Origin: a virus
IMG/VR virus record: IMGVR_UViG_3300045996_001561
Location: 1-64,000 of that record
Direction: 5' to 3' (one strand)
DNA: 64,000 nt
Shown: piece by piece, positions 13,940 to 33,106 of the stretch
Numbering within the stretch: the stretch's first letter is position 1
How the letters are laid out: the number at the start of each line of letters is the position of its first letter
Position numbers and translations under genes: made by a program
The notes under the pieces: model-generated
The model's input: only the letters and a program-made list of their open reading frames with translations
The model's database searches: none
What the model was told of the DNA's origin: nothing

Positions 13940-14358
13940 CCCCGCTGCCCGGAGACGGTCGTAATGAAGATGGGTGCGGTTACCGCGATATCAGGGGCGA
14001 GACTCGGGAGGTAGGCCAGAACGTGGCTAAAGGCGTCGTTCTGCAATCGTGCCGACCGAGTTGTGGGATCTTCCGCATAGAGGAACGTTGCCGAGTGACC
14101 GGCCATATTCGCCTGTCGCGTTTGCGGTACCACCACGGAGAGGTACGATGCCGTCTGCAGGACGATCGCCTCATGCACATGCTCCAGTTCCGCTCCCACG
14201 CGCGTGGGAGCCAATGGATCGAGTGCCGTAATCCAGGCTTCCGCCCTCCCGAGATAGATCGACGACGCGATCACTTCTGCTGGCAACGCTTCCGGTGCCA
14301 GCATCGGATCGACGGCTGCCCGAATGTCGTCGTACCGCTCGGGAGGGAGGATCGCCAT
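13936..14358 (-). CDS. Head-tail adaptor protein
   Basis: A 140-residue, mostly helical protein (YDDIRAAVDPMLAPEALPAE, IYLGRAEAWITALDP, VHEAIVLQTASYLSVVVPQ) in the position of the connector adaptor that docks below the portal. It overlaps the downstream gene by four bases (ATGA). Helical content and length fit the gp6/gp15 adaptor families; no diagnostic motif is visible. Confidence 0.6.
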   Translation of the reverse strand: MAILPPERYDDIRAAVDPMLAPEALPAEVIASSIYLGRAEAWITALDPLAPTRVGAELEHVHEAIVLQTASYLSVVVPQTRQANMAGHSATFLYAEDPTTRSARLQNDAFSHVLAYLPSLAPDIAVTAPIFITTVSGQRG

Positions 14359-14360
14359 GA

Positions 14361-14843
14361 CTACCCCTTGGCTGCCGCCTTGTCGGCCTCAGCCTGCGCC
14401 TTCTGCGCGTTCGCCTCGTTCTGCTCCTGGGCAACCCGAAGCTGCTCCCGAACCTCGGCAAGCTGGACGGAAAGCTCGTCCTGCTGCCGCGAGATCTTGT
14501 CGTAGTCACCCTGGAAGGAAATCTCCCCCCGGGTCGGCATTGCGCCCTCACCGACCACAAGCGGGGCTTCGACGCGCGGCGTACCGTCGATCTTCTGCTG
14601 GGCCATCTCGTCGGCCCGCTTGATCTCGTCCTTGTCTGCGTCATCGGCCTCTTCCAGCCAATTCTCCCGCAGACGTGACATCACGTACGCCGTACGACCA
14701 ACCTTTGCTACCAGATCGCCCGCCACGATCACCGATCCACCCGGGTGCAGGGGGTCGATTTCGTGCAGGGCAACCCGGTTATCGTCGAGGGCAGAACGGA
14801 CGTAGAGGAACTCCCGGTCGTCCTGCGCCGCCTTCTTCGCCAT
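14361..14843 (-). CDS. Coiled-coil structural/assembly protein
   Basis: A 160-residue protein beginning MAKKAAQDDREFLYVRS. The N-terminal half is beta-like (HEIDPLHPGGSVIVAGDLVA). The C-terminal half is a long Gln/Ala/Glu-rich coiled coil (QQDELSVQLAEVREQLRVAQ) ending in Lys/Ala. It directly follows the major capsid gene and its terminator hairpin. It may be a minor head protein or head-fibre component. Confidence 0.65.
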   Translation of the reverse strand: MAKKAAQDDREFLYVRSALDDNRVALHEIDPLHPGGSVIVAGDLVAKVGRTAYVMSRLRENWLEEADDADKDEIKRADEMAQQKIDGTPRVEAPLVVGEGAMPTRGEISFQGDYDKISRQQDELSVQLAEVREQLRVAQEQNEANAQKAQAEADKAAAKG

Positions 14844-14875
14844 GATTGCTCTCCTTACACCGCGATAGGTGTCAA

Positions 14876-14903
14876 GAACGGGGGAACGTCGTCCCCCCGT
14901 TCG
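14876..14903 (-). terminator. Hairpin after major capsid gene
   Basis: The stem GAACGGGGG/CCCCCGTTC with a short loop lies one base beyond the capsid stop codon and is followed on the minus strand by TTGACACC. It is a likely attenuator that lets capsid mRNA accumulate above downstream connector genes. Confidence 0.7.
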
Positions 14904-16130
14904 TTAGGCCATCGTCCAGGTCTTGTTAGCGTTCTGGTCGAGAAGGGCAAAGCCGTCGTTCTCGGTGAACACCATCAATTCCGTCTGCCGCTCGATGAAC
15001 CGGGTCGTCTCCTGAATATCGGATCCCGCCTCGGTGATGCGCTCCAGCGCCCAACGCGCGTCGATACCGAGGTAGACGCCAGCGCCGACCGCATCTGTCT
15101 GGCCCAGCAGCACGCGGGCACCGTAGCGGTTCTGCATCGGTACCAGGGCACCAAAGCCATTCTCGTCCTGCACGGAGATCAGGAGCGGGTTGGCATTCGG
15201 CATGGCCAGCAACTGCAGATTGGTCAGTTCCGCCTCGCGGGCGAAGATGTGCGTCAGGACGTAGGGATCCTTGAACTTCGCCTTGAAGGCCAGGAGTCCC
15301 TTGATCGTGGGCACCGCGCCGGTGTCCAGCGTCGACTGGTTGAAGTTGTCGGCCGAGGTTCCCACGTTGCCGTCGCCGTTCAGGAGAACGTCAATGGCCT
15401 GAGCAACCCGGTCGGCCTCAACCTGCAACGCCGCCTTGGCGACGAAGATCCCGACCTTGTCGATGGGCACGCGCCGGATCGCCTCGTAGGAGATCTCGAT
15501 GCCCCGCCCATACTTGTAGAGCCGAACCAGTTGTTCGCTGGTTTCGATCTTCGCCCGAGGAATATCGGCCGTCTCACCGATACGCAGCAGGCGCACGTCC
15601 GCAGCAGCGGGGTCGTTGAGATAGGCGCGTCGGTAGACGTCGCCATCGATCTGGCTCTGGAAGGCCAGGAGATCGGAGAGCGCGATCCCCGGGGTCAGCG
15701 TCTGGGAGTACAACCCCCCGGAGGCTTCCACGTAGGGGCGCTGCAGCGACCCGATGACCGACTCACCCGACTCGATCACGCGGCGCTGTGGTACCTGTGG
15801 GACGTACCCATCGGCCCGCGCCTCACGATAGACCCGGTTCATCCACTCCGGAAGGAGGGCGCGACCCGTGTCATCCTCGTAGATATCCTCAACCCGGTCG
15901 GCCCAGATGCCTTCCCGGGGTGAGCTGCGGAAGCGGAACCCTGACGCCTGCAGCACGCGGCCAAAGGCGTTGAGCTTGCGATCCTCACCATCCCACTGAT
16001 GCGAGGGATCCTCGTCCTCAAGGAATTGGGTGAGGGTCTTTTTCTCGGTTGCCGCCTCACGGTAATAGACCGGGAGGTTCTTCAGAATCTCTCCGGGCCG
16101 CTCCCGAAAGTTGGAAACGTTCAGTCTCAT
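14904..16130 (-). CDS. Major capsid protein (HK97 fold)
   Basis: A 408-residue protein, the right length for an HK97-fold capsid subunit, located downstream of the protease and decoration genes. The N-terminal 100 residues are charged and helical (EAATEKKTLTQFLEDEDPSH), as in a delta-domain or N-arm. The core contains IETSEQLVRLYKYGRGIEIS, KVGIFVAKAALQVEADRVAQ and VLLGQTDAVGAGVYLGIDAR, typical of the A-domain and P-domain spine helix. The mapped order protease - decoration - capsid - connectors is standard. A dedicated terminator follows. Confidence 0.9.
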   Translation of the reverse strand: MRLNVSNFRERPGEILKNLPVYYREAATEKKTLTQFLEDEDPSHQWDGEDRKLNAFGRVLQASGFRFRSSPREGIWADRVEDIYEDDTGRALLPEWMNRVYREARADGYVPQVPQRRVIESGESVIGSLQRPYVEASGGLYSQTLTPGIALSDLLAFQSQIDGDVYRRAYLNDPAAADVRLLRIGETADIPRAKIETSEQLVRLYKYGRGIEISYEAIRRVPIDKVGIFVAKAALQVEADRVAQAIDVLLNGDGNVGTSADNFNQSTLDTGAVPTIKGLLAFKAKFKDPYVLTHIFAREAELTNLQLLAMPNANPLLISVQDENGFGALVPMQNRYGARVLLGQTDAVGAGVYLGIDARWALERITEAGSDIQETTRFIERQTELMVFTENDGFALLDQNANKTWTMA

Positions 16131-16178
16131 GATGTAGCCCTCCGCGACTCGCGGTCGCGCCGTTAGCCCTTCAGGCTC

Positions 16179-16622
16179 TTATGCGCCGAGGTAGACGCTG
16201 ATCGCGGTCGACACCGCGTCATCCTCAACCCGGTGCCGACCGGCCAGCGCCGTGGTGCCGGATGTGCCAGCAGCGGGGCCAATGTAGCCACGCGCCGAGG
16301 CAGGCCCAAGCGCGCCCACGATGCGATCGCCGCGCACGACGTCAACCGCGTCACCCTGGGGGAGCTTGCACTCGCCCTCGGTCTGGACAACCACGGAGCC
16401 GTCGCCCTCGACGTGATCGAGGCGTCCGAGGATGGCCTGCCCTGCGGCCGACAGTTCCACGGCATCCTGCGTCCCGACAACGTGCGACACGGCACGACCG
16501 GCAACGGCCGATCCATTGGCTGCCGTGGCGTCAAAAACAATCGTCGACCCATCGGCCTTGAAGGTTTCGGCGCGATAGCCAATCCCGTCCCGAGGGCCAG
16601 TGATCAATCTCGGATTCGCCAT
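16179..16622 (-). CDS. Capsid decoration/stabilisation protein
   Basis: A 147-residue small beta protein rich in Ala/Gly/Val, with FKADGSTIVFDATAANGSAV and CKLPQGDAVDVVRGDRIVGA. It lies between the prohead protease and the major capsid gene, where siphoviruses encode decoration or head-fibre-base proteins that bind the outside of the expanded capsid. The name is inferred from order, size and beta content. Confidence 0.7.
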   Translation of the reverse strand: MANPRLITGPRDGIGYRAETFKADGSTIVFDATAANGSAVAGRAVSHVVGTQDAVELSAAGQAILGRLDHVEGDGSVVVQTEGECKLPQGDAVDVVRGDRIVGALGPASARGYIGPAAGTSGTTALAGRHRVEDDAVSTAISVYLGA

Positions 16623-16656
16623 GATGGTACTCCCTCACACCCGGAAACCGGGGTGT

Positions 16657-18141
16657 CTATCCGATCAGGTGGGCGGGCGTGCGTCCGCGCTTGCGGGCCG
16701 GTCGATCGGCAGGCGTCTCTGGCTCTTCCTCGCTCGTGACCACATCGCGCGTGGCGCGACCGGCCTCAAAGGGGGAACGCTCGTCCAGATCCGCAATCAT
16801 GCGCTTGACGCCGTCGATATCCTCAACGGCCGCATAGCGCCGAAACCGCTTCTGCTCCGCTTCCGCCGCATGTGCGCCGTAGACGCGCACGACTGCCGCG
16901 TCGAGGTCTTTGAGCAACCCCTCGCGGAAGTCCCGCCCATCCTTGGCCTCGCGCTCAAGACTCTCCAACCGCTCGTTCTGCTCCAGAACGGAGGTTGCGA
17001 GAGACTCGATGCACTCGTAGGGATCCTCGCCAAGCTCGATCCCCTTGTCGCGGAACGAGACCCGGAGCCGCTCCATCGGATCCTGCTCGACCGCCGAGGA
17101 CGCCTTTGCGCGATCCTCCCGACTGAGATTGATGACCGTGGCCCGCTTGGTGACCGGAGCCGGGTTCGCTCCCTCACCCTGGTCGGCACCCCGCTCTTCA
17201 GCGTTCGGCTCGACAACCTCGGCCTCGGTATCATCGACAACGGTCGCCTTGGTGGTTCGTGCGCTCATGATGTTGAGATCCCTTTCCACCGCGTAGACGC
17301 GGCCCTCCGGTGCGATCCGCACCCGATACGTGTTCTCAAGGATTTGGCGATCCAGATCCGATAGCTCGCCTCGGGCTGAGGCAATACGGGCCATGTCAAC
17401 AGCGACGATCCCCGCCCCCGGGGTCGCGCCGTCATAGACCGTCGAGACCTCGTTGAGGTGACCCTCGTCGATGCGGAAGATGGCAGTGATCTTCTCGACC
17501 TTGCGCCCCTTCTCCACATCGTAGGTGATGCCGGGGTAGTGTGTGCAACGCTCCGGGTCATCCCAATCCAACTCCCACCGCTTCAGGAGGTCGCCGTTGC
17601 AGATGTTGCAGATCATGGCCCCGGGGGTGAATCCGATGCTGACATCGGCGTAGATCCCCGACCGCGCCCCAGCAATGAACTGGTCGCTGGTCATATTGCC
17701 ACATTGCAACCCAGGGATCGTGTAGAAGTCGATCAGGCAGGATCGCTCCTTGGCGGGGCCAATGACCTCTCCCTGCAGGGAGCGACCGAATCCCACCTGA
17801 CCGGCCTCGCCGCCCCCGAAGAAGCCGCTGGTTCCCGCGCCGTTGTGGCTGACCTGAAACTGGACGCCCGGGTCGGTCGCATCGGCCGCGTAGTTGCGAA
17901 GCGATCCGTCCGACATATAGGTGAAGTAGCTGTCGACCTTGGTGTTGCTGGCGCGCACGTTGAAGAAGAAGGGAGTGACCGCATCCTCGCCGTCAAAGAT
18001 ATCGGGATCCGGCGCGCGGCGGCGTACCAGATCCATGAGCGACTCGCGCTCTTTGGCGGTGAGCTTGCTTGCGGCCCGGACATGCAGTGCGCCATGCGCG
18101 CGGTAGACCGCGTTGTCCATTCCCGGTTCGGTTTCTGCCAT
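16657..18141 (-). CDS. Prohead maturation protease with C-terminal scaffold-like region
   Basis: About 494 residues. The N-terminal half looks like an HK97-type serine prohead protease: a HNGAG segment near residue 100, GRSLQGEVIGPAKERSCLID, then SGIYADVSIGF and a downstream ECTHYPG-like block. It also contains a zinc-ribbon-like CNICNGD...CTHYPG insert. The C-terminal half is charged, helical and disordered (EEEPETPADRPARKRGRTPA at the end), as expected for a fused scaffolding domain. I chose ATG 18141 because GGAGG lies 7 bases upstream; an ATG at 18162 is less well placed. The protease cleaves scaffold and capsid N-arms during maturation. Confidence 0.8.
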   Translation of the reverse strand: MAETEPGMDNAVYRAHGALHVRAASKLTAKERESLMDLVRRRAPDPDIFDGEDAVTPFFFNVRASNTKVDSYFTYMSDGSLRNYAADATDPGVQFQVSHNGAGTSGFFGGGEAGQVGFGRSLQGEVIGPAKERSCLIDFYTIPGLQCGNMTSDQFIAGARSGIYADVSIGFTPGAMICNICNGDLLKRWELDWDDPERCTHYPGITYDVEKGRKVEKITAIFRIDEGHLNEVSTVYDGATPGAGIVAVDMARIASARGELSDLDRQILENTYRVRIAPEGRVYAVERDLNIMSARTTKATVVDDTEAEVVEPNAEERGADQGEGANPAPVTKRATVINLSREDRAKASSAVEQDPMERLRVSFRDKGIELGEDPYECIESLATSVLEQNERLESLEREAKDGRDFREGLLKDLDAAVVRVYGAHAAEAEQKRFRRYAAVEDIDGVKRMIADLDERSPFEAGRATRDVVTSEEEPETPADRPARKRGRTPAHLIG

Positions 18142-18337
18142 AGCAAAGCCTCCGAAATCCATGCCGGATCACGGCGGCGGCAGTCGAGTTCCGGACGAAC
18201 GCGGCATCCCGAAGGGGGAACGCTCACGTGTCTGGGGGAGCGGGTTACTCCCTCGACACCTGTCACGCCTCTAAGTGCGGGATACTAGCAGAGGATTTAT
18301 CGCGCTGTCTAGGATGCGTCGGAACGAGGACGCGGGG

Positions 18338-18883
18338 TTAGGAGCGTTTTCTGCTCCTGCGGCGCTTCTTCCTGGCCTTTCCGCCCCATACCGTCTTGAG
18401 CTTCCAGATATCGAATGGCCCGGGCGTCTCGCGCCACCCGTGGACGCACGAATCTTCGCGGCACCCGTAACAGTCCTTGATGCCGGTCAGAATGTGCATG
18501 AACTCATGGCAGGCCACGATGCGCTGGCGTCTGGGATCAAGGGGGATGGTGTCGGTAACGAGGATCTTCCCCACCCCGGGACTCAGCGTCCAAGCAAGAC
18601 CGGCATATTGGTCACCGGGGTTACCGGAGCAGGTATCGATATCCTCGGGGCACACCCCTGTTGGGTGTCGCTCGTAGACCAGCCTCGGCCCCTTGCTGGG
18701 CATGACGGCGTTGAAGTCGTCGACCACCTGGGGGATGATCCCGTTCCAGAGAACCGATGTGTAGTCCTTGACGTGGACGACCGGCCGGACGAAGGTCGTC
18801 GTTCGCTTCTTCTTCGCCTCGGCCCCCACAAAGGGGAGTGCCGCTAGGGCTGCTAGAACACGCCGTCGATCGATCACCGCCAC
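18338..18883 (-). CDS. Secreted HExxH zinc metalloprotease
   Basis: A 181-residue protein with an N-terminal twin-arginine-like signal (DRRRVLAALAALPFVGAEA) and the zinc-binding CHEFMHILTG (HExxH) at about residues 123-132, with Asp and His residues downstream. Two Cys pairs (CPEDIDTC, CYGCREDSC) may form disulfides. The last 15 residues are almost all Lys/Arg/Ser. It is first in the transcript from the 19.03 kb promoter, ahead of the capsid genes. The role is unknown: it might degrade cell-surface protein, aid release, or act in the virion. The GTG start (18883) could also be GTG 18877. Confidence 0.8.
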   Translation of the reverse strand: MAVIDRRRVLAALAALPFVGAEAKKKRTTTFVRPVVHVKDYTSVLWNGIIPQVVDDFNAVMPSKGPRLVYERHPTGVCPEDIDTCSGNPGDQYAGLAWTLSPGVGKILVTDTIPLDPRRQRIVACHEFMHILTGIKDCYGCREDSCVHGWRETPGPFDIWKLKTVWGGKARKKRRRSRKRS

Positions 18884-18894
18884 CCCCGGGGTAT

Positions 18895-18933
18895 GGCAAT
18901 GCCGCCAGGGCGATCAGTCCCAGCGGCATTGCC
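18895..18933. repeat. 11-bp perfect inverted repeat upstream of metalloprotease
   Basis: GGCAATGCCGC and GCGGCATTGCC flank a 17-base spacer. The repeat lies in the untranslated leader between the 19.03 kb promoter and the metalloprotease start, so it can form a hairpin in the mRNA or be an operator. Confidence 0.6.
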
Positions 18934-19030
18934 CGGTACAAAAGTGTGTCATCCCATGATGGTAGTAGGGCAGGAGTCGTCCGACGAGTTGCCGCTCCAC
19001 CTGACGCCTCCCAACCCGACTACGCCCATG

Positions 19031-19059
19031 ATATTACCATATGCGAGGGAGTTTGTCAA
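19031..19059 (-). promoter_or_regulatory. Promoter for the head-gene operon
   Basis: On the minus strand TTGACA (19059-19054), a 17-base spacer ending TATGG, and TAATAT (19036-19031). It has the same architecture as the promoters in the 28-58 kb region, linking structural gene expression to the same polymerase. It lies about 150 bases upstream of the metalloprotease. Confidence 0.85.
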
Positions 19060-19157
19060 TGGCAGGGGCGGGGCGTTCAGGTGGGATGCAGACACCCGAA
19101 CCCCCCGACACCCTTACGCACCCGGAGGTACGGCCGCTTGGGGAAACGGCGAGAAAA

Positions 19158-19418
19158 CTATAACTTGCCCTGCTGCCTCGGATCATTTCGCATGCCGACC
19201 ATCCGCATGCCAATTTCCAACCCGGTGGCATCCGGATCGAGGTCGTGGATATCGGCGTCAGGGATGGTGATCGTCTGGGCGTAGTGCTTGACGAAGGCCA
19301 GCTTGCCATCCTGCACCAGGGAACCGGCAATCACCAGGGCGACCTCGATGCCGCTGTCGGTGATGGTGGTGCCGTTAATCGCCACGCTCAGGTTGCGGGC
19401 GGGTAGGTTGCGGTTCAT
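19158..19418 (-). CDS. Hypothetical beta-rich small protein
   Basis: An 86-residue protein with NLSVAINGTTITDSGIEVAL and DADIHDLDPDATGLEIGMRM. It is the last gene of a four-gene run transcribed from the 20.69 kb promoter. No family recognised; the immunoglobulin-like spacing of strands could suit a small structural protein. Confidence 0.65.
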   Translation of the reverse strand: MNRNLPARNLSVAINGTTITDSGIEVALVIAGSLVQDGKLAFVKHYAQTITIPDADIHDLDPDATGLEIGMRMVGMRNDPRQQGKL

Positions 19419-19876
19419 GTTTTCCTCCGTGCTTCATCCTCGACCCAGGTTGCCTCGTAGAACCGTCGCTCGGCCCCGGGAAACCGCCTGACAGCATAGC
19501 AACGCATCCCGATAGGGGACGCCGCCTCGGGAGAGCAGACGATCTCGACCTCGGTATTGTGGGGCGCGGGCGGGGTAAAGACCCAGGAGACGGCCGCGCC
19601 GTCACCCATGAGGGCTTTGGTCTGCCCGGGCATCACCCGTGGTGACGGCACACGCGGCCCGGGATCCCCAAAACGAAACGCCAGCGACTTCTCTTCCTCC
19701 GTGGGTCGCCGCAGGGCAATGGATCCCCACTCGTTGACCTCAGCCACAGCAACGCCGGACATATGCAGGAGGGCTGCCGCCATATTGGCAAGGTGGACGT
19801 CGACCGATGCCTGGAATGGGGTGATTTCTTCGCCCAGATCGATCGCCACCGCATCCGGGTCGGGTGGTTCGCTCAT
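19415..19876 (-). CDS. Hypothetical protein, 153 residues
   Basis: An acidic protein (MSEPPDPDAVAIDLGEEITP) with FQASVDVHLANMAAALLHMS and a C-terminal beta segment containing CSPEAASPIGMRCYAVRRF. It overlaps both neighbours by four bases, so translation is coupled. No domain recognised. Confidence 0.7.
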   Translation of the reverse strand: MSEPPDPDAVAIDLGEEITPFQASVDVHLANMAAALLHMSGVAVAEVNEWGSIALRRPTEEEKSLAFRFGDPGPRVPSPRVMPGQTKALMGDGAAVSWVFTPPAPHNTEVEIVCSPEAASPIGMRCYAVRRFPGAERRFYEATWVEDEARRKT

Positions 19877-20181
19877 CCCTTGATCCCCATCCCTTCCTTG
19901 ACCTTTTCGTAGACCATCACCTTGTACTCTTCGGTCAGGACGCGGGCATAGTCATGCGGGATGCCGCTGTCGATAAGCTCCTTGTAGAAGGCTCCCAGCA
20001 TGCGCCCAAAGGTCACGCTGGCATCGATGGCAGCGACGGATCCGGGGTTGATGGGTGATGGGTTGGCGGCAATGGCCTGCTCGTAGGTCTTGTCGGGAAC
20101 TCCCGGGACAGCATCGCTAATCAGGGGATCCTGTTTCTTCTGGGAGTCCTTCTGCATCCGATAGTCGAACCCTGCCGTCAT
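19873..20181 (-). CDS. Hypothetical protein, 102 residues
   Basis: The start ATG 20181 overlaps the upstream stop (ATGA). The product MTAGFDYRMQKDSQKKQDPL has a disordered Pro-rich middle and a helical C-terminus (SGIPHDYARVLTEEYKVMVY). No family recognised. Longer in-frame starts run into the upstream gene and are unlikely. Confidence 0.7.
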   Translation of the reverse strand: MTAGFDYRMQKDSQKKQDPLISDAVPGVPDKTYEQAIAANPSPINPGSVAAIDASVTFGRMLGAFYKELIDSGIPHDYARVLTEEYKVMVYEKVKEGMGIKG

Positions 20182-25296: not shown

Positions 25297-26628
25297 TTAG
25301 CGCGGCCTTTCCGCCGTCTCTCCCGTGTACTGCTCCCAGCGGTCGACGACCACATCACAGTACCCCGGGCTAATCTCGATCCCGTAGCAGGTCAACCCTT
25401 CCTGCTCGGCCGCAATGAGCGTACTTCCGCTGCCCAGGAAGGGGTCATAGACGATATCGCCGGGTCGCCCGGAGAGGCTAAACGCATGCGCCATGAGGGC
25501 CACGGGCTTCATGGTCGGATGCTCCGGGGATTTCACGGGGCGGTCGAACTCCCAGAGCGTATCGTGGGTGCGATCGCCGTAGAACCAGTGGGCCTTCCCC
25601 GGTGACCACCCGTAAAAAATCGGTTCCCACCGCCAGTGATAGTCGACGCCCAGGGGCGCAAAGGTGGCATTATTCTTGACCCAGGCGAGGGTTTGGCGCA
25701 GCACCCCGACTTCGGTGAGCGCCAATGAAAAGCGCCACAGGTTATTTCCTGACGGCCCGCAGACGTACCAGGGGGAGCCTTCCTCGGTCATCTCCAGGGC
25801 CACCCGAAAACTGTTCCGCAGCAGATCGGTGAGTGCCTCACCGTCGTCCTTCTCGTCACCGTCCAGATCGACGGTCACCCGGTTGCTGGAACCGCGCTGC
25901 AGCGAGTCCAGATACCGATTCTTCGCGGCCACATCCACCCCGTAGGGCGGATCCGTGAACACCAACCGCGCGTTCTCCAGTCCCTCGGTGCCCATGAAGA
26001 GCTTGTGGGCGACCTCGATATCCTCGGCATCGCCACAGATGATCCGGTGCCGCCCCAGCAGGATCAGATCCCCGGGCTGGGTGATCGCCGCGTCGTCGGC
26101 CTTCGGCGGCGGTGCTTCATCCTCGGCCTCGCCGTAGGGATTCTCGTAGGGGCCATCGCCGGTCAGATCGAACTCCGGGTACAGCACATCGGCCCTGACG
26201 CCCAGATCGACCAACTCGTCGGGGAACCAGTACTCGGCCACCGCCTGCACACCCTGGTCGGCATCAGCCTGGATGACTTCCTCGGCCCAGGCCAACCCCT
26301 CCTGCGCCGTCCGGTTATCGGCATAGGCCAACTCGCGGGCCTGCCCCAGCGGGTCGTCGAGATCGAGATCGGTACGTTTCACCGCGATGATGGTATCGCC
26401 GGTCGTCTCCACAATGGTGACCGGCAGCCCCATCTCCATCGCCGCCTCGGCCGTTTTATTCCCGGCGATAATGCGCCCCTCGCCATCGAGCAGGATGGAG
26501 CGACCGGCCCCATTGCGCTGCAGCGACTTCTCCAGCAAGTCCCGACCGCGCTTCGTGCCCTTGTTCGCGTTGTGATCGTCCGGAGTAATCTCCGTCCAAT
26601 CGGCCTCAACCACCCGCCGCACCGCCAT
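25297..26628 (-). CDS. DNA methyltransferase with N-terminal ParB-like domain
   Basis: A 443-residue protein. Residues 1-110 resemble a ParB/Srx nuclease-like domain (ITPDDHNANKGTKRGRDLLE, DGEGRIIAGNKTAEAAMEMG). The C-terminal part is an N6-adenine/N4-cytosine methylase with the catalytic TDPPYGVDV near residue 228 and the SAM-binding DPFLGSGST near residue 400. Catalytic motif before FxGxG is the beta-class order. This fused architecture is common in phages and prophages. It may protect phage DNA or mark packaging substrates. The recognition sequence cannot be read from sequence. Confidence 0.93.
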   Translation of the reverse strand: MAVRRVVEADWTEITPDDHNANKGTKRGRDLLEKSLQRNGAGRSILLDGEGRIIAGNKTAEAAMEMGLPVTIVETTGDTIIAVKRTDLDLDDPLGQARELAYADNRTAQEGLAWAEEVIQADADQGVQAVAEYWFPDELVDLGVRADVLYPEFDLTGDGPYENPYGEAEDEAPPPKADDAAITQPGDLILLGRHRIICGDAEDIEVAHKLFMGTEGLENARLVFTDPPYGVDVAAKNRYLDSLQRGSSNRVTVDLDGDEKDDGEALTDLLRNSFRVALEMTEEGSPWYVCGPSGNNLWRFSLALTEVGVLRQTLAWVKNNATFAPLGVDYHWRWEPIFYGWSPGKAHWFYGDRTHDTLWEFDRPVKSPEHPTMKPVALMAHAFSLSGRPGDIVYDPFLGSGSTLIAAEQEGLTCYGIEISPGYCDVVVDRWEQYTGETAERPR

Positions 26629-27673: not shown

Positions 27674-27879
27674 CCTCTGTTCTCCGCGTAGGGGTCGGAA
27701 GGTGTCAAGGGGGTCATCAGCATTGTCCCGAAATGTGGGCCGGATTCATACGAAGGCTCCGCTGTAGGACACGTGTTCTACCCCCGCCGCGAAACACCCG
27801 TCTGGCCTACCGCGCGGCGCTACCCGGCGCTACCCCCCTACCGCGCGGCAAAGCTACGGGTAGGGGGGTAGGGGGTACC

Positions 27880-28131
27880 CTAGGACTGGCACATGCGTTC
27901 TAGTACCGCTACCCGCCTAGCCGCCGCGCGTACGTCGTCCGCTAGGTAGCTAGGTACCGCTACCCTATCCGCGCGGTAGTACCCGACTTCTAGCCGTAGG
28001 TCAGCTAGGGCGCTATAGGCATCGGCTAGCCGATCTTCTAGGCCGCGTAGCCGCGTACCGCGCGGTACCCAAGCGGTACCTTCATATTGGGCTACCGTAC
28101 TACCGCTAGCCGCTACCATATAGCTATCCAC
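27880..28131 (-). CDS. Hypothetical 83-residue protein with aberrant codon use
   Basis: A GTG start behind TAGGAGGAAACCA, with the promoter 50 bases upstream. All 8 Leu codons are CTA and 8 of 9 Val codons are GTA, unlike neighbouring genes that favour CTC/CTG and GTC/GTG. The product has a helical, probably coiled centre (RGLEDRLADAYSALADLRLE) and a second helix (DDVRAAARRVAVLERM). The leader has a GGCTAG/CTAGCC hairpin with loop TACGGAAG, which together with promoter and ribosome site argues that the gene is real. Function unknown. Confidence 0.7.
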   Translation of the reverse strand: MDSYMVAASGSTVAQYEGTAWVPRGTRLRGLEDRLADAYSALADLRLEVGYYRADRVAVPSYLADDVRAAARRVAVLERMCQS

Positions 28132-28151
28132 TGGTTTCCTCCTACCGCTAC

Positions 28152-28207
28152 GGCTAGCTTCCGTACTAGCCTATAGCTACTATACCATACCCGTAGGCGA
28201 TTGTCAA
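28152..28207 (-). promoter_or_regulatory. Promoter and leader hairpin of the 27.88 kb gene
   Basis: TTGACA (28207-28202), a 17-base spacer ending TATGG, TATAGT (28184-28179). The leader then forms a 6-bp stem GGCTAG/CTAGCC with loop TACGGAAG (28171-28152), followed by GGAGGAAACC before the GTG. Confidence 0.85.
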
Positions 28208-28211
28208 TAGG

Positions 28212-28382
28212 CTAGTACGCTACCCTATAGGCGCTACCCGCGCCTAGTGGCCAGTACCCCGTATAGGTACCCCAAGCGCTACGGTACTGTACCCGTACCC
28301 CGGCTACCCGCCTAGCCGCTAGCCGCCGTACCCGCGCGCCGCGCGATAGGTACCCCGTACCCCGGCCGCCTAGCCTAGTCAT
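28212..28382 (-). CDS. Possible 56-residue basic protein
   Basis: An ATG frame (28382 to a TAG at 28212) lies downstream of a perfect promoter at 28.43-28.46 kb and ends five bases before the next promoter. Codons are again CTA and GTA for Leu and Val. The product MTRLGGRGTGYLSRGARVRR is Arg/Gly/Tyr-rich and could be a non-biological reading of the odd composition. The GGGGGTAGGG before the ATG is a weak ribosome site. Call is tentative. Confidence 0.45.
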   Translation of the reverse strand: MTRLGGRGTGYLSRGARVRRLAARRVAGVRVQYRSAWGTYTGYWPLGAGSAYRVAY

Positions 28383-28427
28383 ACCCTACCCCCTACCGCT
28401 ACCGTACCTACCTACCTAACTACCGCT

Positions 28428-28456
28428 ACTATAGCATACCCGTACGCCATTGTCAA
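28428..28456 (-). promoter_or_regulatory. Promoter of the 28.21 kb frame
   Basis: Minus-strand TTGACA (28456-28451), 17-base spacer ending TATGC, TATAGT (28433-28428). Same family as the other early promoters. Confidence 0.8.
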
Positions 28457-28546
28457 CTACCTACGCGCGGGGTAGCTACGGTACTAGGCTATAGCGGCGC
28501 GCGGGTAGGTATACGGCTAGTACGGTACTACGGCTATACCTACCCC

Positions 28547-28575
28547 TTGACATACCCGTACGGCTATGGTAGTAT
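28547..28575 (+). promoter_or_regulatory. Upstream tandem promoter for the 28.74 kb gene
   Basis: TTGACA, 17-base spacer ending TATGG, TAGTAT. Its leader contains GGGGTA/TACCCC around a GCGGG loop, and a second promoter follows 75 bases downstream with no gene between, so the two are probably tandem. Confidence 0.8.
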
Positions 28576-28649
28576 AGCGGTACTAGGGTAGTACGGGGTA
28601 GCGGGTACCCCGGCCTAGCGGGTAGGAAAGGGGGTAGCCTATAGGGGGG

Positions 28650-28728
28650 TTGACAATCACGGTACGCTATGGTAGGGTATACCTAGAGCGGGGTACGGGT
28701 AGCGCGGTACGGAACGCGCGGTACCCCG
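28650..28728 (+). promoter_or_regulatory. Promoter and two-storey leader hairpin of the 28.74 kb gene
   Basis: TTGACA (28650-28655), 17-base spacer ending TATGG, TAGGGT (28673-28678). The leader pairs CGGGGTAC (28689-28696) with GTACCCCG (28721-28728), enclosing GCGCG/CGCGC (28702-28719) with loop GTACGGAA. GGAGGAAACC precedes the ATG. Confidence 0.85.
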
Positions 28729-28742
28729 TACGGAGGAAACCA

Positions 28743-29078
28743 ATGCACGGCGTGACAACTGAAGAGCGGTGTTCCTGCGGCGAGTACTCACTCGCTGGGG
28801 GTGGGACGATCTGCGCCTCGGAAGCTCGGGCAATCGAGGAGGAGGCGGTTCGGAGCCACTATGAGGTCGCCTATGACGAGGTCATGCCATTCCTCGTCGA
28901 GATGTACCGAGGCGTGGTGGAAGAGGATCGCTCGGCCAACACCTTGATGGCGGTCGTTAGAGCAGCCCAGCTTGCGCTCATGAACCCCGACATCACGGTC
29001 GATTGGGTCAAGGAGCAGTACGAGGACGTTGAGTTCGGAAATCGCGCGCAAAAGGCGCTCGATCCTCGGGTGGTCTAG
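28743..29078 (+). CDS. Hypothetical protein, 111 residues, Cys/His N-terminus
   Basis: Starts at ATG 28743 behind ACGGAGGAAACCA. The N-terminus MHGVTTEERCSCGEYSLAGG has a CxC and a nearby Cys that might bind metal. The rest is helical and acidic (YEVAYDEVMPFLVEMYRGVV, DITVDWVKEQYEDVEFGN). It is a single-gene cassette with its own promoter, leader hairpin and downstream hairpins. No family recognised. Confidence 0.8.
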   Translation: MHGVTTEERCSCGEYSLAGGGTICASEARAIEEEAVRSHYEVAYDEVMPFLVEMYRGVVEEDRSANTLMAVVRAAQLALMNPDITVDWVKEQYEDVEFGNRAQKALDPRVV

Positions 29079-29190: not shown

Positions 29191-29454
29191 CTACGGCACG
29201 ATCTCCCACGCCGCGTCCTCGGGGTCGTAGGAAAACGCCTCGCCGTTGGCGCAGATGGCCGTGGCTGACCCATCCTCAAAGACTCGGAGGACTTCGCAAT
29301 CCGGGGTTAAAAGACTCTGAACGTAGCGTTCGTGCGCGTTCAGAAATCGCGCCATCGCGTAGTCCGGCTCGGGCGGAACGTGGGCCGACGCGCTCCCCGT
29401 ACCCAAAACCGCCGCAATCCCGAATGCCGCTACCGCGTACCGTACCTTCCGCAT
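29191..29454 (-). CDS. Small secreted protein, 87 residues
   Basis: Has a Sec-type signal (MRKVRYAVAAFGIAAVLGTG then SASAH) with likely cleavage after ASA, and a mature domain of about 62 residues with two Cys (TPDCEVLRV, TAICANGEAF) that may form a disulfide. Being exported, it could act on the envelope, for example in superinfection exclusion. It is a one-gene cassette divergent from the 29.66 kb gene. Confidence 0.75.
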   Translation of the reverse strand: MRKVRYAVAAFGIAAVLGTGSASAHVPPEPDYAMARFLNAHERYVQSLLTPDCEVLRVFEDGSATAICANGEAFSYDPEDAAWEIVP

Positions 29455-29493
29455 CGCCTACCCCTTTCGTACGTACCTTTTTCAACTAGGGGT

Positions 29494-29522
29494 ACTATAG
29501 CATACCCGGCCTAGTTTGTCAA
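29494..29522 (-). promoter_or_regulatory. Promoter of the secreted-protein gene
   Basis: TTGACA (29522-29517), 17-base spacer, TATAGT (29499-29494). The leader can pair TACCCCT with AGGGGTA just before the ATG, which would include the ribosome site. Confidence 0.8.
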
Positions 29523-29559
29523 GGGGTACCTATAGGGAGAATAGCCTACCCCCTACCCC

Positions 29560-29643
29560 TTGACAAACTGGTAGGGGTATGGTACTATAGCCGTAGTTGA
29601 AAAAGGGTAGCGGGTAGCGGTAGCGGTACCGTACGCGCTACCC
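29560..29643 (+). promoter_or_regulatory. Promoter and leader hairpin of the 29.66 kb gene
   Basis: TTGACA (29560-29565), 17-base spacer ending TATGG, TACTAT (29583-29588). The leader pairs GGGTAGCG (29605-29612) with CGCTACCC (29636-29643), immediately followed by GGAGGG. It lacks the ACGGAA loop seen in most other leaders. Confidence 0.8.
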
Positions 29644-29656
29644 GGAGGGTACGAAG

Positions 29657-29938
29657 GTGGATTGCCCCACAATGGAAGAGGAAGCGCGGGAAGCGGTAGG
29701 TATCGCTTTCTGGCGGGATCACGGCGACGACGTCGAGGCATTGACCTCCGCGATCGAAACCGGGAAGATCGAGGCTCGGACGTGCTTCGACGCCATCCTC
29801 GCTCGGAAATCCTGGCGAAACGCGGTCGATATCGATTACGCGGCCGAGGCGGAAGTCGAGTACAACTTGGCCGAGTTGTGGTGGGATCTGCAGCATCCAG
29901 ATCGGGAATTCCTCGACGCCATGCCCCTGGTCGGATAA
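29657..29938 (+). CDS. Hypothetical acidic protein, 93 residues
   Basis: The GTG at 29657 lies 8 bases after GGAGGG; ATG 29672 is an alternative. The product is helical and acidic (MEEEAREAVGIAFWRDHGDD, EVEYNLAELWWDLQHPDREF). One-gene cassette, convergent with the next gene. No family recognised. Confidence 0.75.
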   Translation: MDCPTMEEEAREAVGIAFWRDHGDDVEALTSAIETGKIEARTCFDAILARKSWRNAVDIDYAAEAEVEYNLAELWWDLQHPDREFLDAMPLVG

Positions 29939-30004
29939 TCCGTACAACGCACCGAATCGCTCGGGTTCCCTCGGGAATCCGGGCTTTTCGGGGTGACAGG
30001 TGTT

Positions 30005-30034
30005 GGGAGTCCTCGGGATTTCCCAAGGACTCCC
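30005..30034. terminator. Terminator hairpin between convergent cassettes
   Basis: A perfect 9-bp stem GGGAGTCCT/AGGACTCCC with a 12-base loop, next to the stop of the minus-strand gene. A weaker GGGTTCCC/GGGAATCC hairpin lies about 35 bases to the left. Confidence 0.75.
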
Positions 30035-30041
30035 CGTGGGT

Positions 30042-30308
30042 TCAAAACCGCTCGGGTAGGTTTCCGTAGCGTTCAAGGAGGAAGATCTGATCGTCCAGAT
30101 CCGGCTCCTTTGGCGTGGGATCGGCTCGGCGGCTCGGGTAGATTCGCTCAAATTCGTCCAGATCGGGGTCGTCTCCGTACAAGGCTCGGAGCGTCTCCCA
30201 AATCCCCACCGCTCGACCGAATTCGTAGGGGTTGGCGTGGTTCATCTCCACGTTCGCGCGTCGGATCAGGTTTCCGACCTTTTCGCGCTGGGTGATCGGT
30301 ATCGCCAT
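30042..30308 (-). CDS. Hypothetical protein, 88 residues
   Basis: ATG 30308 follows AAAGGAGGAGCCG. The protein MAIPITQREKVGNLIRRANV is helical with an acidic C-terminal half (GDDPDLDEFERIYPSRRADP, DLDDQIFLLERYGNLPERF). One-gene cassette with its own promoter. No family recognised. Confidence 0.75.
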   Translation of the reverse strand: MAIPITQREKVGNLIRRANVEMNHANPYEFGRAVGIWETLRALYGDDPDLDEFERIYPSRRADPTPKEPDLDDQIFLLERYGNLPERF

Positions 30309-30345
30309 CGGCTCCTCCTTTTTCCGTACCTTCCAACGTGGGGGT

Positions 30346-30374
30346 ATAGTACCATACCCGTATGCTTTTGTCAA
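30346..30374 (-). promoter_or_regulatory. Promoter of the 30.04 kb gene
   Basis: TTGACA (30374-30369), 17-base spacer ending TATGG, TACTAT (30351-30346). The leader keeps GGTACGGAA but lacks the 3' half of the usual stem. Confidence 0.85.
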
Positions 30375-30411
30375 GGGGTAGGGGTGGGGTATTTTGCTAC
30401 GGCTATACCCC

Positions 30412-30475
30412 TTGACAAACTAGTAGGGGTATGCTATAGTAGCCACAGTTGGATCGGGGTACGGAACCCAGATCC
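30412..30475 (+). promoter_or_regulatory. Promoter and leader hairpin of the 30.50 kb gene
   Basis: TTGACA (30412-30417), 17-base spacer, TATAGT (30435-30440). The leader folds as GGATC-G-GGG / CCC-A-GATCC (30451-30475) with loop TACGGAA (30460-30466), then GAAGGAGGAAAC before the GTG. Confidence 0.88.
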
Positions 30476-30496
30476 GGGTAGACGAAGGAGGAAACG

Positions 30497-30772
30497 GTGA
30501 AATTGGATAAGGCGAAGAAGGAATTGGTCAAGTCGTTGCTGGCGGAATCCGCGCAAGCGGTCGAGGATGCCAGAAAAGCCGACCGGGAAGCCAAGACCGG
30601 CTCCAAGACCCGATTTGAGCGGGTTCGGCTCCAAGGCGTCGAAACCGGGATCACCACGGCGCTGATCGCGATCTTTGGCGAGGATGCGGTGGCGCTCGTC
30701 GAGGACGAGATCACCACGGAGAAGGAGAAGGCGGAACTTGCCGCGCAGGAGCCGGTTGAGGACGCCGCCTAG
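30497..30772 (+). CDS. Hypothetical helical protein, 91 residues
   Basis: GTG start behind GGAGGAAACG. Highly charged and helical throughout (KLDKAKKELVKSLLAESAQA, VEDEITTEKEKAELAAQEPV), no Cys or Trp. Likely a small coiled-coil protein. One-gene cassette ended by a terminator hairpin at 30.84 kb. No family recognised. Confidence 0.8.
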   Translation: MKLDKAKKELVKSLLAESAQAVEDARKADREAKTGSKTRFERVRLQGVETGITTALIAIFGEDAVALVEDEITTEKEKAELAAQEPVEDAA

Positions 30773-30838
30773 ACCCTCGGGGGTACCCTCGGAAGCGGGG
30801 GTACCCTCGTCTGCGCCCAGAACGCGGGCAAAGAGCCA

Positions 30839-30859
30839 CTCCCCAGGCATCCTGGGGAG
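30839..30859. terminator. Terminator hairpin CTCCCCAGG/CCTGGGGAG
   Basis: A perfect 9-bp stem with a CAT loop between convergent genes. Two direct copies of GGGGGTACCCTCG (about 30778 and 30798) precede it. Confidence 0.75.
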
Positions 30860-30874
30860 GCTCGGGGTCGTGGC

Positions 30875-31027
30875 CTAGAGCGGGAATCGGTAGGATCGAC
30901 CCATACGCACCGATGCAAGATAGGATCGACCAACGTTGGCGCGGCGTGCGGCTCGGTACGACCAGATGCCAGCAACTCGCTTGCGGTGGTAGCGGTAGAT
31001 CTTCCGCACGATCCAGGGGGTTTCCAT
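30875..31027 (-). CDS. Small basic protein, 50 residues
   Basis: ATG 31027 follows GGAGGAAACCC. The product METPWIVRKIYRYHRKRVAG is Arg/Tyr-rich with repeated RAARR and RMGRSYR segments, suited to nucleic-acid binding. One-gene cassette with promoter and leader hairpin. No family recognised. Confidence 0.7.
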   Translation of the reverse strand: METPWIVRKIYRYHRKRVAGIWSYRAARRANVGRSYLASVRMGRSYRFPL

Positions 31028-31048
31028 AGGGTTTCCTCCGATCTTTGC

Positions 31049-31108
31049 CGGGGTGCCGTACCCCGATTCCGTAGTTCCTATACTACCATACCCGTAGGAA
31101 AGTGTCAA
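31049..31108 (-). promoter_or_regulatory. Promoter and leader hairpin of the 30.88 kb gene
   Basis: TTGACA (31108-31103), 17-base spacer ending TATGG, TAGTAT (31085-31080). Leader hairpin CGGGG/CCCCG (31065-31049) with heptaloop TACGGCA, preceded by a free TACGGAA. Confidence 0.88.
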
Positions 31109-31123
31109 GGGGTAGAATAGGGG

Positions 31124-31183
31124 TTGACAAACGTACGCGGGTATGGTAGTATTCACCTACGTTGAAGGGGGTACGGAAACCCC
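31124..31183 (+). promoter_or_regulatory. Promoter and leader hairpin of the 31.20 kb gene
   Basis: TTGACA (31124-31129), 17-base spacer ending TATGG, TAGTAT (31147-31152). The leader pairs GGGG (31167-31170) with CCCC (31180-31183) around GTACGGAAA. Its -35 box is 15 bases from the divergent -35 box. Confidence 0.88.
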
Positions 31184-31199
31184 GAAGGAGGAATCGCCC

Positions 31200-31454
31200 A
31201 TGAAGCGCGAGGATTACGAGTTCCTGATCGAGAAAGCCGAGAAGGTGGTACGGGATCACCAAACGGCCGTGGACGTGGTCGAAGGCGTCGATAATTCGCG
31301 GGAATCGGTCATGGCCATGAAGCTGGCCGAGGCGCGGATGGAGGGATTTTTCGACGGAATCTTCGCCGCCTCGCGGGATTCCTGCCTCGCGGGATTTGTG
31401 CGCCAAGATGCCAAGTTTCGGATGGATCGGGATCGGATTCTCGATCTGAGCTAG
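31200..31454 (+). CDS. Hypothetical helical protein, 84 residues
   Basis: ATG 31200 behind GAAGGAGGAATCGCC. The sequence (MKREDYEFLIEKAEKVVRDH, SVMAMKLAEARMEGFFDGIF) is an amphipathic helical bundle with one Cys near the end. One-gene cassette closed by two perfect hairpins. No family recognised. Confidence 0.8.
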   Translation: MKREDYEFLIEKAEKVVRDHQTAVDVVEGVDNSRESVMAMKLAEARMEGFFDGIFAASRDSCLAGFVRQDAKFRMDRDRILDLS

Positions 31455-31472
31455 CACCGCTCGGATCAGCAC

Positions 31473-31502
31473 GGAAACCGTGGGGAGATCCCCACGGTTT
31501 CC
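31473..31502. terminator. 13-bp perfect terminator hairpin
   Basis: GGAAACCGTGGGG/CCCCACGGTTTCC with loop AGAT lies just after the 31.20 kb gene. The 3' arm ends in TTTCC. This is a strong terminator candidate working in both directions. Confidence 0.85.
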
Positions 31503-31526
31503 TGCCTCCCTGGAAAGGCACGACGA

Positions 31527-31552
31527 AGGGTACCCCGAGGATGGGGTACCCT
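31527..31552. terminator. 10-bp GGGTACCCC hairpin
   Basis: AGGGTACCCC/GGGGTACCCT with a 6-base loop lies 15 bases beyond the stop of the minus-strand gene. It is the same word as the 29.1 kb hairpins. Confidence 0.8.
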
Positions 31553-31566
31553 CGGTGGCGTGGTTT

Positions 31567-31854
31567 CTACCAGCCTTCCTCCCACTCTCGCTCGGTCGTG
31601 CAGCCCACGATCGCGCATGGCTCGACGTAGGAGTAGCGACCAAAGGCGATGCCGCCTTCGATCCCGACCATCTCTAGCTTGCGGACGTTGCCGACCAGCC
31701 GCAGATCCGTGGGATCGGTGCCTTGCGCGCGGTAGTCCGCGTAGTGATCCTTTTCCTCTTTCAGGAAGGCTTGGGCGTCCTTCTTGGTGCGGAAGGTTCC
31801 CTGGTATTCGTCGTTGACGCCGTCCCCTAATCCCGCGTACCCGTGGTAATGCAT
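31567..31854 (-). CDS. Hypothetical protein, 95 residues
   Basis: ATG 31854 follows AAAGGAGACGCGC. The product MHYHGYAGLGDGVNDEYQGT has a helical middle (KKDAQAFLKEEKDHYADYRA) and a C-terminal beta region with SYVEPCAIVGCTTEREWEEG (two Cys). One-gene cassette. No family recognised. Confidence 0.78.
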   Translation of the reverse strand: MHYHGYAGLGDGVNDEYQGTFRTKKDAQAFLKEEKDHYADYRAQGTDPTDLRLVGNVRKLEMVGIEGGIAFGRYSYVEPCAIVGCTTEREWEEGW

Positions 31855-31889
31855 GCGCGTCTCCTTTCTGCGACCTTCAACGTGGGGGT

Positions 31890-31918
31890 ACTATAGCATA
31901 CGGGTACGCCATTGTCAA
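31890..31918 (-). promoter_or_regulatory. Promoter of the 31.57 kb gene
   Basis: TTGACA (31918-31913), 17-base spacer, TATAGT (31895-31890). Only three bases separate this -35 box from the divergent one. Confidence 0.85.
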
Positions 31919-31921
31919 GTC

Positions 31922-31979
31922 TTGACAATCGGGGTAGGGTATGGTAGTATATAAGCGTGGTAGGGAAACGGAACCCTAC
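31922..31979 (+). promoter_or_regulatory. Promoter and leader hairpin of the 32.00 kb operon
   Basis: TTGACA (31922-31927), 17-base spacer ending TATGG, TAGTAT (31945-31950). Leader hairpin GTAGGG/CCCTAC (31960-31979) with loop AAACGGAA, then GGGAGG before the ATG. Confidence 0.88.
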
Positions 31980-31997
31980 GGATCACGGGAGGATGCG

Positions 31998-32231
31998 ATG
32001 AAAGTTGATCCGATCTATGCGTACGCGCTTGATGGGCATCTGGAGGATTGCCAGGGGAATCACCTGGGAACCTATCGGGTGATCTCCCGGTGGCGCGTGG
32101 GATCGCGCTACATGGGCTGGTATACGTGGCACGCCATCCGGGCGAGGATCCGGGGTCTCGATGGGGAGATGTGGGCGCGGTACAACGTCGACAACGGCTC
32201 GGCCGTCGCGCTGCGACCGGTGCGATCATGA
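31998..32231 (+). CDS. Hypothetical protein, 77 residues
   Basis: ATG 31998 after GGGAGGATGCG. The product MKVDPIYAYALDGHLEDCQG is beta-rich and aromatic (YRVISRWRVGSRYMGWYTWH). It overlaps the next gene by ATGA. First of three genes on this transcript. No family recognised. Confidence 0.75.
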   Translation: MKVDPIYAYALDGHLEDCQGNHLGTYRVISRWRVGSRYMGWYTWHAIRARIRGLDGEMWARYNVDNGSAVALRPVRS

Positions 32232-32422
32232 GTCTCACGCCAAACCCGACGTTCGATCCGAAAACGGGGGAGGATCTGCCTCCCCACGTCCGCTACGATG
32301 GCTGGTTCCATACGTGCGGCGACTGTGGGAATGATGATGCGGTGTTCATCGTCACCCTCGACGGCGAGGATCACTTCTCCTGTCGATCATGCGTCTATGC
32401 GCACTATCTCGCTATCGCGTAG
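32228..32422 (+). CDS. Zinc-ribbon mini protein, 64 residues
   Basis: Two CxxC knuckles (FHTCGDCGNDD and HFSCRSCVYAH) about 23 residues apart form a zinc ribbon. The ATG overlaps the upstream stop. Such mini ribbons are common in phage early regions and bind nucleic acid or host enzymes. The specific role is unknown. Confidence 0.75.
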   Translation: MSLTPNPTFDPKTGEDLPPHVRYDGWFHTCGDCGNDDAVFIVTLDGEDHFSCRSCVYAHYLAIA

Positions 32423-32456
32423 GAGGCTCGGCGCTTCGCACCAGAAGGAGGCTCGG

Positions 32457-32711
32457 ATGGCTCGGTATTGCCGGGATCGGTACGAGGGTCAGCTTCGTGC
32501 CAACATCTACGGTGCCACCAAATACGTGGTGGCTGATGTGGAAACCGGGAGGATCGTCGCGGAACTCGACGAGAACGATCAGCTCCTGACGCATGAGAGC
32601 GCCCGATCCCTCGCCGCAGGGATGAATGCGATCATCTGGCAGCAGCGTCGACGTCATGGGCGATGCGCGGGGCATCCCAGGACTCGGGATCGGGGTCAGT
32701 CCTCGGTCTAA
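32457..32711 (+). CDS. Hypothetical protein, 84 residues
   Basis: ATG 32457 behind AGAAGGAGGCTCGG. MARYCRDRYEGQLRANIYGA is followed by a beta hairpin (KYVVADVETGRIVAELDEND) and a basic, Cys-containing tail. Last gene before the 32.73 kb terminator. No family recognised. Confidence 0.75.
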   Translation: MARYCRDRYEGQLRANIYGATKYVVADVETGRIVAELDENDQLLTHESARSLAAGMNAIIWQQRRRHGRCAGHPRTRDRGQSSV

Positions 32712-32724
32712 CCCTCGGGAACAC

Positions 32725-32756
32725 GGATCACCCCCTGGAATTCCAGGGGGTGATCC
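32725..32756. terminator. 32-base perfect palindrome (bidirectional terminator)
   Basis: GGATCACCCCCTGGAA followed directly by its complement TTCCAGGGGGTGATCC gives a 16-bp uninterrupted dyad between convergent genes. It is the longest perfect palindrome I see in the window. Confidence 0.85.
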
Positions 32757-32765
32757 TCGGTGCGG

Positions 32766-32996
32766 CTAGCTGATCCGGGTGTTCCAGAGATTGTCCTTGA
32801 TCTTCTGCAATCGGTAGGATCGCTTGAGGGCGCTCGGGCGATGCTTCCCGTTGGCCATCAGATCGTTCTCGCACCGCTCGATCTCGGCGTCGATGCGTCC
32901 GACCTCGTCGCGCAACGCTTCGACTAAGGCGTCCACGCGCGACTGGATCGCATCCTCCGTCAGATTCCGTAGCGGGATCTTGTACCCGGCATCCAT
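32766..32996 (-). CDS. Hypothetical helical protein, 76 residues
   Basis: ATG 32996 follows GGAGGAATCAGG. MDAGYKIPLRNLTEDAIQSR leads into a long helix (ALVEALRDEVGRIDAEIERC) and a basic end. Probable coiled-coil dimer. One-gene cassette with promoter, leader hairpin and terminator. Confidence 0.78.
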   Translation of the reverse strand: MDAGYKIPLRNLTEDAIQSRVDALVEALRDEVGRIDAEIERCENDLMANGKHRPSALKRSYRLQKIKDNLWNTRIS

Positions 32997-33019
32997 CCTG
33001 ATTCCTCCGTTTCCTTTCC

Positions 33020-33074
33020 GGGGTTCCGTACCCCAACGTGCGTCAATACTACCATACTGGTACCCTATTGTCAA
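33020..33074 (-). promoter_or_regulatory. Promoter and leader hairpin of the 32.77 kb gene
   Basis: TTGACA (33074-33069), 17-base spacer, TAGTAT (33051-33046). Leader hairpin GGGG/CCCC with heptaloop TACGGAA (33034-33020). Three bases separate it from the divergent -35 box. Confidence 0.88.
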
Positions 33075-33077
33075 GGC

Positions 33078-33106
33078 TTGACAAACTACCCCGACTATGG
33101 TAGTAT
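33078..33106 (+). promoter_or_regulatory. Promoter of the 33.14-34.03 kb operon
   Basis: TTGACA (33078-33083), 17-base spacer ending TATGG, TAGTAT (33101-33106). The leader keeps GGTACGGAAAGGAGG but has no matching 3' stem, so the loop motif merges with the ribosome site. Confidence 0.85.

Follow-up and report, generated by a model that had tools for sequence, protein, structure and literature searches.

Why would close to a kilobase of phage DNA use hardly anything but three units, namely C, G and the pair TA? The window analysed here comprises 64,000 nucleotides (positions 1 to 64,000 of IMG/VR record IMGVR_UViG_3300045996_001561, which has 79,344 bases), taken from a 79-kb siphovirus contig in which a 950-bp stretch at 27,781–28,735 has an extreme composition. 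Within this segment A almost always follows T and T almost always precedes A, there are 139 TA steps, and 90 bases fall outside the C, G and TA-pair alphabet. The dinucleotide profile gives TA a relative abundance of 3.91 in the segment against 0.62 in the genome, and in 300-bp windows the share of A/T that lies in TA steps peaks at 87%, the window median being 10% and the 95th percentile 20%. AA (0.35), CA (0.30) and GA (0.27) are scarce, and AT is lowered from 1.45 genome-wide to 0.90, without being shunned outright, because it persists within TATA. All this occurs at a G+C content of 0.61, compared with 0.62 for the genome. Relative to the rest of the genome, CTAG is enriched 38-fold, TATA 25-fold, GTAC 13-fold and CGCG 3-fold, while GCCC/GGGC is nearly forbidden (2 occurrences vs 25 expected under a token model), a rule that is new to this follow-up, and CCGG and GGCC are also low. 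Recoded as C, G and TA tokens, the segment is approximately memoryless at first order.

The preliminary description had placed the anomaly at 27,710–28,740. Its first ~70 bp (27,710–27,780) turn out to be ordinary, and AT, which it had listed among the avoided steps, is reduced only; the avoidance of AA, CA and GA, the packing with CTAG, GTAC and CGCG and the sharing of words with leaders are borne out, the last extending to −10 boxes. A composition like that of the segment was found nowhere else in the 79-kb genome. The milder versions that the preliminary description had noticed at 29–31.6 kb are present as foci on divergent promoter pairs (29.37–29.73, 30.30–30.51, 30.99–31.20, 31.80–32.04 and 33.00–33.15 kb), which fade with distance. 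The weaker focus of like composition at 29371–29730 surrounds divergent promoters at 29494–29522 (−) and 29560–29588 (+) and reaches into the start of the minus-strand gene 29191–29454. A preference for words that are uncommon elsewhere in this genome yielded a weak correlation only.

The segment sits between two arms, at the head of the early genes. The left arm, on the minus strand, encodes tape measure, major capsid, portal, large terminase, a ParB-domain DNA methyltransferase and an HNH protein; the right arm, mostly on the plus strand, holds small unknown genes in divergent pairs and then a ParB-like protein, an O-like initiator and a primase/helicase. The methyltransferase gene (window 25297–26628), between terminase and segment, joins a ParB-like N-terminal domain to an N6/N4 DNA methyltransferase. 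Cumulative GC skew reaches its minimum at 28,464, where divergent transcription is also centred. About 240 bp are near-identical at the two record ends (1–240 and 79087–79326, the latter past the window), and the map is therefore circularly permuted; the few mismatches between the ends may represent strain variation. No close relatives were found: distant blastn comparisons against phages and protein searches with the HNH, terminase, capsid, primase/helicase and 83-aa proteins gave none or distant ones only, and a scan of genome contigs returned mostly chance or coding matches. Other high-TA loci turned out to be tandem repeats (of the GCTAGCGGGG type) or codon effects and were set aside.

What is spared within the segment is informative. 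The region contains the strong host-type promoters and small genes of an early region, and we read the segment as the divergent early control region of this siphovirus. Between 27.5 and 33.5 kb there are 16 promoter-like sites where 2.1 are expected, 13 of them with a perfect TTGACA and a 17-nt spacer. Leftward, a sigma70-type promoter with an extended −10 (TTGACA-17-TATAGT, 28179–28207, −) precedes an 83-aa open reading frame, and a second promoter of the same consensus (28428–28456, −) has no convincing gene directly downstream. Rightward, TTGACA-17-TAGTAT at 28547–28575 (+) is the upstream member of a tandem, and a promoter-like site with two mismatches to the genome motif (28650–28678, +) precedes the gene at 28,743. 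Exceptions to the TA rule concentrate where function demands particular letters: at these four sites in both the −35 and the −10 box, in ribosome-binding sequences, and in the 83-aa frame at codons for acidic residues. The two leaders in the segment each retain a hairpin loop that is common to other early leaders, while their stems are rewritten: GGCTAG-TACGGAAG-CTAGCC at 28152–28171 (−), where the stem follows the TA rule, and GCGCG-GTACGGAA-CGCGC at 28702–28719 (+), with the same loop. A further G+C-rich hairpin, CTACCCCCCTACC...GGGTAGGGGGGTAG (27830–27871), appears in the predicted fold past the stop codon of the 83-aa frame and is a possible terminator, lacking a T run. The segment as a whole shows no added folding stability over shuffled sequence (z −0.84, 0.01 and −1.98) and no match to Rfam families.

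The rule extends into codons. In the 83-aa frame (27880–28131, −; GTG start, ribosome-binding site GGAGGAAACC), for which a protein search found no relatives, all eight Leu codons are CTA and eight of nine Val codons GTA, just as first described, and Ser after T is mostly AGC and not TCN. The frame has 34 TA steps, whereas 10,000 synonymous recodings with genome codon usage average 8.9 and never exceed 15, and the rule is broken only by Asp/Glu and a few other codons, 11 residues being acidic. At the right edge of the segment, which is formed by the ribosome-binding site of the next plus-strand gene, the effect ends sharply: this gene (28743–29078, +), which begins eight bases past the segment and encodes a 111-aa acidic early protein (21 Asp/Glu, 10 Lys/Arg), has normal synonymous sites and 7 TA steps vs 9.1. 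A frame that obeys the rule next to a gene that is normal indicates a nucleotide-level pressure that acts regardless of coding and stops abruptly.

Are the missing words the targets of known enzymes? The segment contains 150 distinct REBASE specificities of 614, the lowest of 82 windows (median 284, next-lowest 249), a count that is itself depressed by low word diversity. Palindromic specificities number 49, compared with 68±5 under an order-2 Markov null; the deficit is weaker for all specificities pooled, since the null for the total of 150 is 165±11. When motifs are shuffled within their G+C class, real ones are again under-represented, both palindromic (49 vs 65±5) and other (101 vs 118±8), and a control window from the same genome shows no such deficit. 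Recognition motifs are thus rarer than lower-order composition predicts, which is the pattern of restriction avoidance. Several known restriction sites are nevertheless abundant in the segment (GTAC 33, CTAG 23, CGCG 25, GCGC 19 and CCGC 40), and to our knowledge no nameable restriction site corresponds to the avoided GCCC. The 4 kb after the segment are slightly low in specificities (z of the mean −4.1), with a return to baseline at 32.5 kb, and palindromic tetramers are not depleted in the early region beyond the segment. Type I sites, considered as a main driver, find no support in that role: there are three against a median of eight, a number equalled or undercut in three other windows.

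A second phage contig shows a comparable focus. Among the matches listed in a scan of viral contigs for the TA-rule pattern, which are otherwise largely attributable to chance, one contig is striking (G009, L336; 23.4 kb). It appears unrelated to the phage studied here, judging by a terminase comparison that gave no match, an empty answer being weak evidence. The architecture is alike: portal and terminase lie at the left on the minus strand, and a peak of TA and CTAG stands at the GC-skew flip beside the terminase and decays along the opposite arm. Its rho(TA) is 0.6–0.8 left of 13 kb, 2.54 at 14 kb, where the skew flips, and 0.79 by 20 kb, a trend that is seen in ordinary coding sequence. 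With distance from the boundary, the specificities per kilobase are 149, 180, 211, 215, 216, 223, 243, 245 and 248. In the 9.8-kb right arm AATT, ACGT, AGCT, CATG, CCGG, GGCC, TCGA and TTAA do not occur and there is a single TGCA, where 12–54 of each tetramer are expected; the left arm lacks AGCT and CCGG only and has GGCC once. Over 13600–20000 and the remainder of the contig, the two arms of this uncultured phage differ in restriction-target content, and the change is abrupt where the GC skew flips next to the terminase. Measured against shuffled motifs of matched composition, real restriction motifs are under-represented in both phages, without a deficit in control windows, and both tolerate CTAG, GTAC, TATA, CGCG and GCGC.

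We favor, with a probability of about 0.5, the reading that the segment was shaped by a positional purging of restriction and other defence targets at the leading end of the genome. The segment would probably occupy the part of the genome that is first to enter the cell, a position that we read from gene order. DNA arriving there would meet host restriction enzymes and other sequence-reading defences ahead of any phage protein, and selection would therefore strip recognition words from it, leaving mainly untargeted ones made up of CTAG, GTAC, TATA, CGCG and GCGC. Whatever is needed would be kept, namely promoter boxes, ribosome sites, hairpin loops and the residues of the 83-aa protein, while free positions and synonymous codons would be rewritten, with an effect that weakens along the early region. 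Such purging accounts for the depleted motifs, for the functional sites that are spared and for the effect on codons, as well as for the gradient and for the reappearance of the pattern in the second contig. Nuclease avoidance was among the explanations offered in the preliminary description and is the best backed of them, because real motifs are depleted beyond composition and because the second contig has the same focus and has lost palindromic tetramers in one arm. A packaging or physical end at the segment would be compatible with its position and with the analogy to the phages JWF and Seuss discussed below.

Purging alone leaves three features unaccounted for, namely the ~38% A+T that is kept as TA, the avoidance of GCCC and the safety of GTAC and CTAG. 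Avoidance on its own would lower A+T, yet G+C is 0.61, and TA must therefore also be favored or regenerated. Were restriction, which we infer to be the agent, to explain the whole TA rule, Type I sites would also be avoided, and their number is not exceptional.

Other phages show related, weaker patterns at their ends. In T7 the lowest restriction-site diversity is found in the first kilobase (z −4.0), and in Achromobacter phage JWF and Caulobacter phage Seuss the termini are the lowest-diversity windows (z about −3), the Seuss window overlapping its annotated terminal repeat; these end windows are partly non-coding and the sample is small. The first-step-transfer DNA of T5 has a restriction-site diversity below that of the next 10 kb. 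Together these minima support a leading-end effect, weaker than that in the phage studied here. The likeness to T7 includes strong promoters of host type and, at the first-entering end, an early gene for a small acidic protein (Ocr, gene 0.3), the Ocr product coming from first-entering DNA (PMC3874165). However, the first kilobase of T7 is mildly shifted and has no TA rule, and its entry end is proven, whereas ours is inferred from position. T5 shares a first-entering terminal repeat with lowered restriction-site diversity, but that repeat is 10 kb; it lacks an EcoRI site, a count that is uninformative alone because the following 10 kb likewise lack one. JWF and Seuss have a similar genome size and, at their termini, raised TA together with the lowest diversity, but they are distant (~25–28% identity in the major capsid only) and the effect is mild. 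Seuss has a second TA-rich stretch of low restriction diversity at 32301–32800, within the structural arm.

Avoidance of restriction sites in phages is known: short, mainly palindromic Type II sites are under-represented or eliminated, and mainly orthodox Type II sites are concerned, according to the survey by Rusinov et al (2018; PMC6286503). The loss of palindromic Type II-like sites in the second contig fits that description. In that survey avoidance is described genome-wide, and a term search of it returned no mention of early genes or injection; here, in contrast, it concerns one segment in this phage or one arm in the second contig, and it goes as far as a three-unit language.

Could the segment instead have grown from its own regulatory words? 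By cryptic simplicity, short TA-containing promoter and leader words would have been duplicated and then altered by point mutation, and the 83-aa frame would have been born from, or have drifted in, the duplicated material. Direct short repeats at most 60 bp apart number 54 in the segment, compared with 14 and 24 under order-1 and order-2 Markov models, tandem units of 7–14 bp are common, and the segment has words in common with −10 boxes and leaders; some growth by duplication is therefore likely. The proposal in the preliminary description that regulatory words had expanded locally is supported to this extent, but it leaves the codon-level rewriting of the 83-aa gene unexplained. Moreover, most of the repeat excess disappears once a third-order token model is the baseline and the words are highly varied, the 83-aa frame retains a ribosome-binding site, a leader hairpin and its 11 acidic residues, and in the second contig the trend runs through ordinary coding sequence with outright loss of palindromes. 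We consider cryptic simplicity unlikely as the main cause.

Somewhat less likely again is a mechanical role, in which dense TA steps would provide flexible DNA that serves looping between divergent promoters, binding by a nucleoid or phage protein, or packaging. The location of the segment, where promoters diverge and the skew is lowest, would suit such a platform, and TA steps are most often 5–6 bp apart, but the 10–11 bp helical phasing is absent, and a mechanical role predicts neither a specific shortage of real motifs nor the avoidance of GCCC.

Two further explanations seem to us improbable to a similar degree. Context-dependent mutation near transcription starts or in single-stranded DNA might preserve A only after T; the foci do coincide with promoter pairs, and the sense strand is G-rich on both sides of the skew flip at the divergent promoters, as it is again at 29.5 kb. 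The gene at 28,743, however, lies directly downstream of two promoters and is normal at its synonymous sites, and the use of AGC and not TCN for Ser after T is unreachable by simple synonymous mutation. Alternatively, CRISPR adaptation or PAM avoidance, in place of restriction, might act at the first-injected end. Loss of AA, TT, GA, TC and AT eliminates many Type I and Type V PAMs. Spacers also arise from, and protect best against, the first-injected, early terminal-repeat region (PMC7515739). Against this, the palindrome loss in the second contig is a signature of restriction that a PAM rule does not require. A replication origin of specialised, easily melted composition, which the preliminary description had listed first, is very improbable, since the skew minimum at 28,464 that would favor it coincides with the centre of divergent transcription, G+C is 0.61, and no iterons occur in the segment, iteron-like repeats lying instead in the O-like gene at 42,690–42,772.

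If the purging of defence targets at the leading end is what shaped the segment, it may not be confined to this phage. Tentatively, and with less confidence than for the locus itself, we suggest that phage genomes carry a positional gradient of such purging, strongest at the first-entering end, which in the extreme reduces a kilobase to a three-unit language and overrides codon choice. Such a gradient would mark the entry end in the sequence itself and would record which restriction repertoire the phage had met, and both the entry direction and the recognition repertoire that shaped it would become readable from uncultured virus sequence. The share of host defence that acts before the first phage protein would likewise become testable. 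In this extreme case, selection on short words would have sufficient force to determine how leader stems are written and which codons are used.

Finally, the early arm has further features of its own. Three 22-bp iteron-like repeats (ACCCCTGACACCC[AG]TGTCAC) lie at 42,690–42,772, inside the O-like initiator gene, and likely mark the replication origin. At least 10 early leaders in window 30314–55300, for example those at 31142–31191 (+) and 33004–33056 (−), have a common hairpin with a CGGAA-containing loop, placed after the promoter and before a GGAGG ribosome site. It is possibly an unnamed leader RNA element of the phage; pattern scans of viral contigs for the promoter and leader arrangement gave matches that look like chance. 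In window 29494–33106 five divergent promoter pairs have their TTGACA boxes back to back. The small gene pairs under their control end at GGGGTACCC hairpins, and such a cassette arrangement may make it easier to exchange genes.
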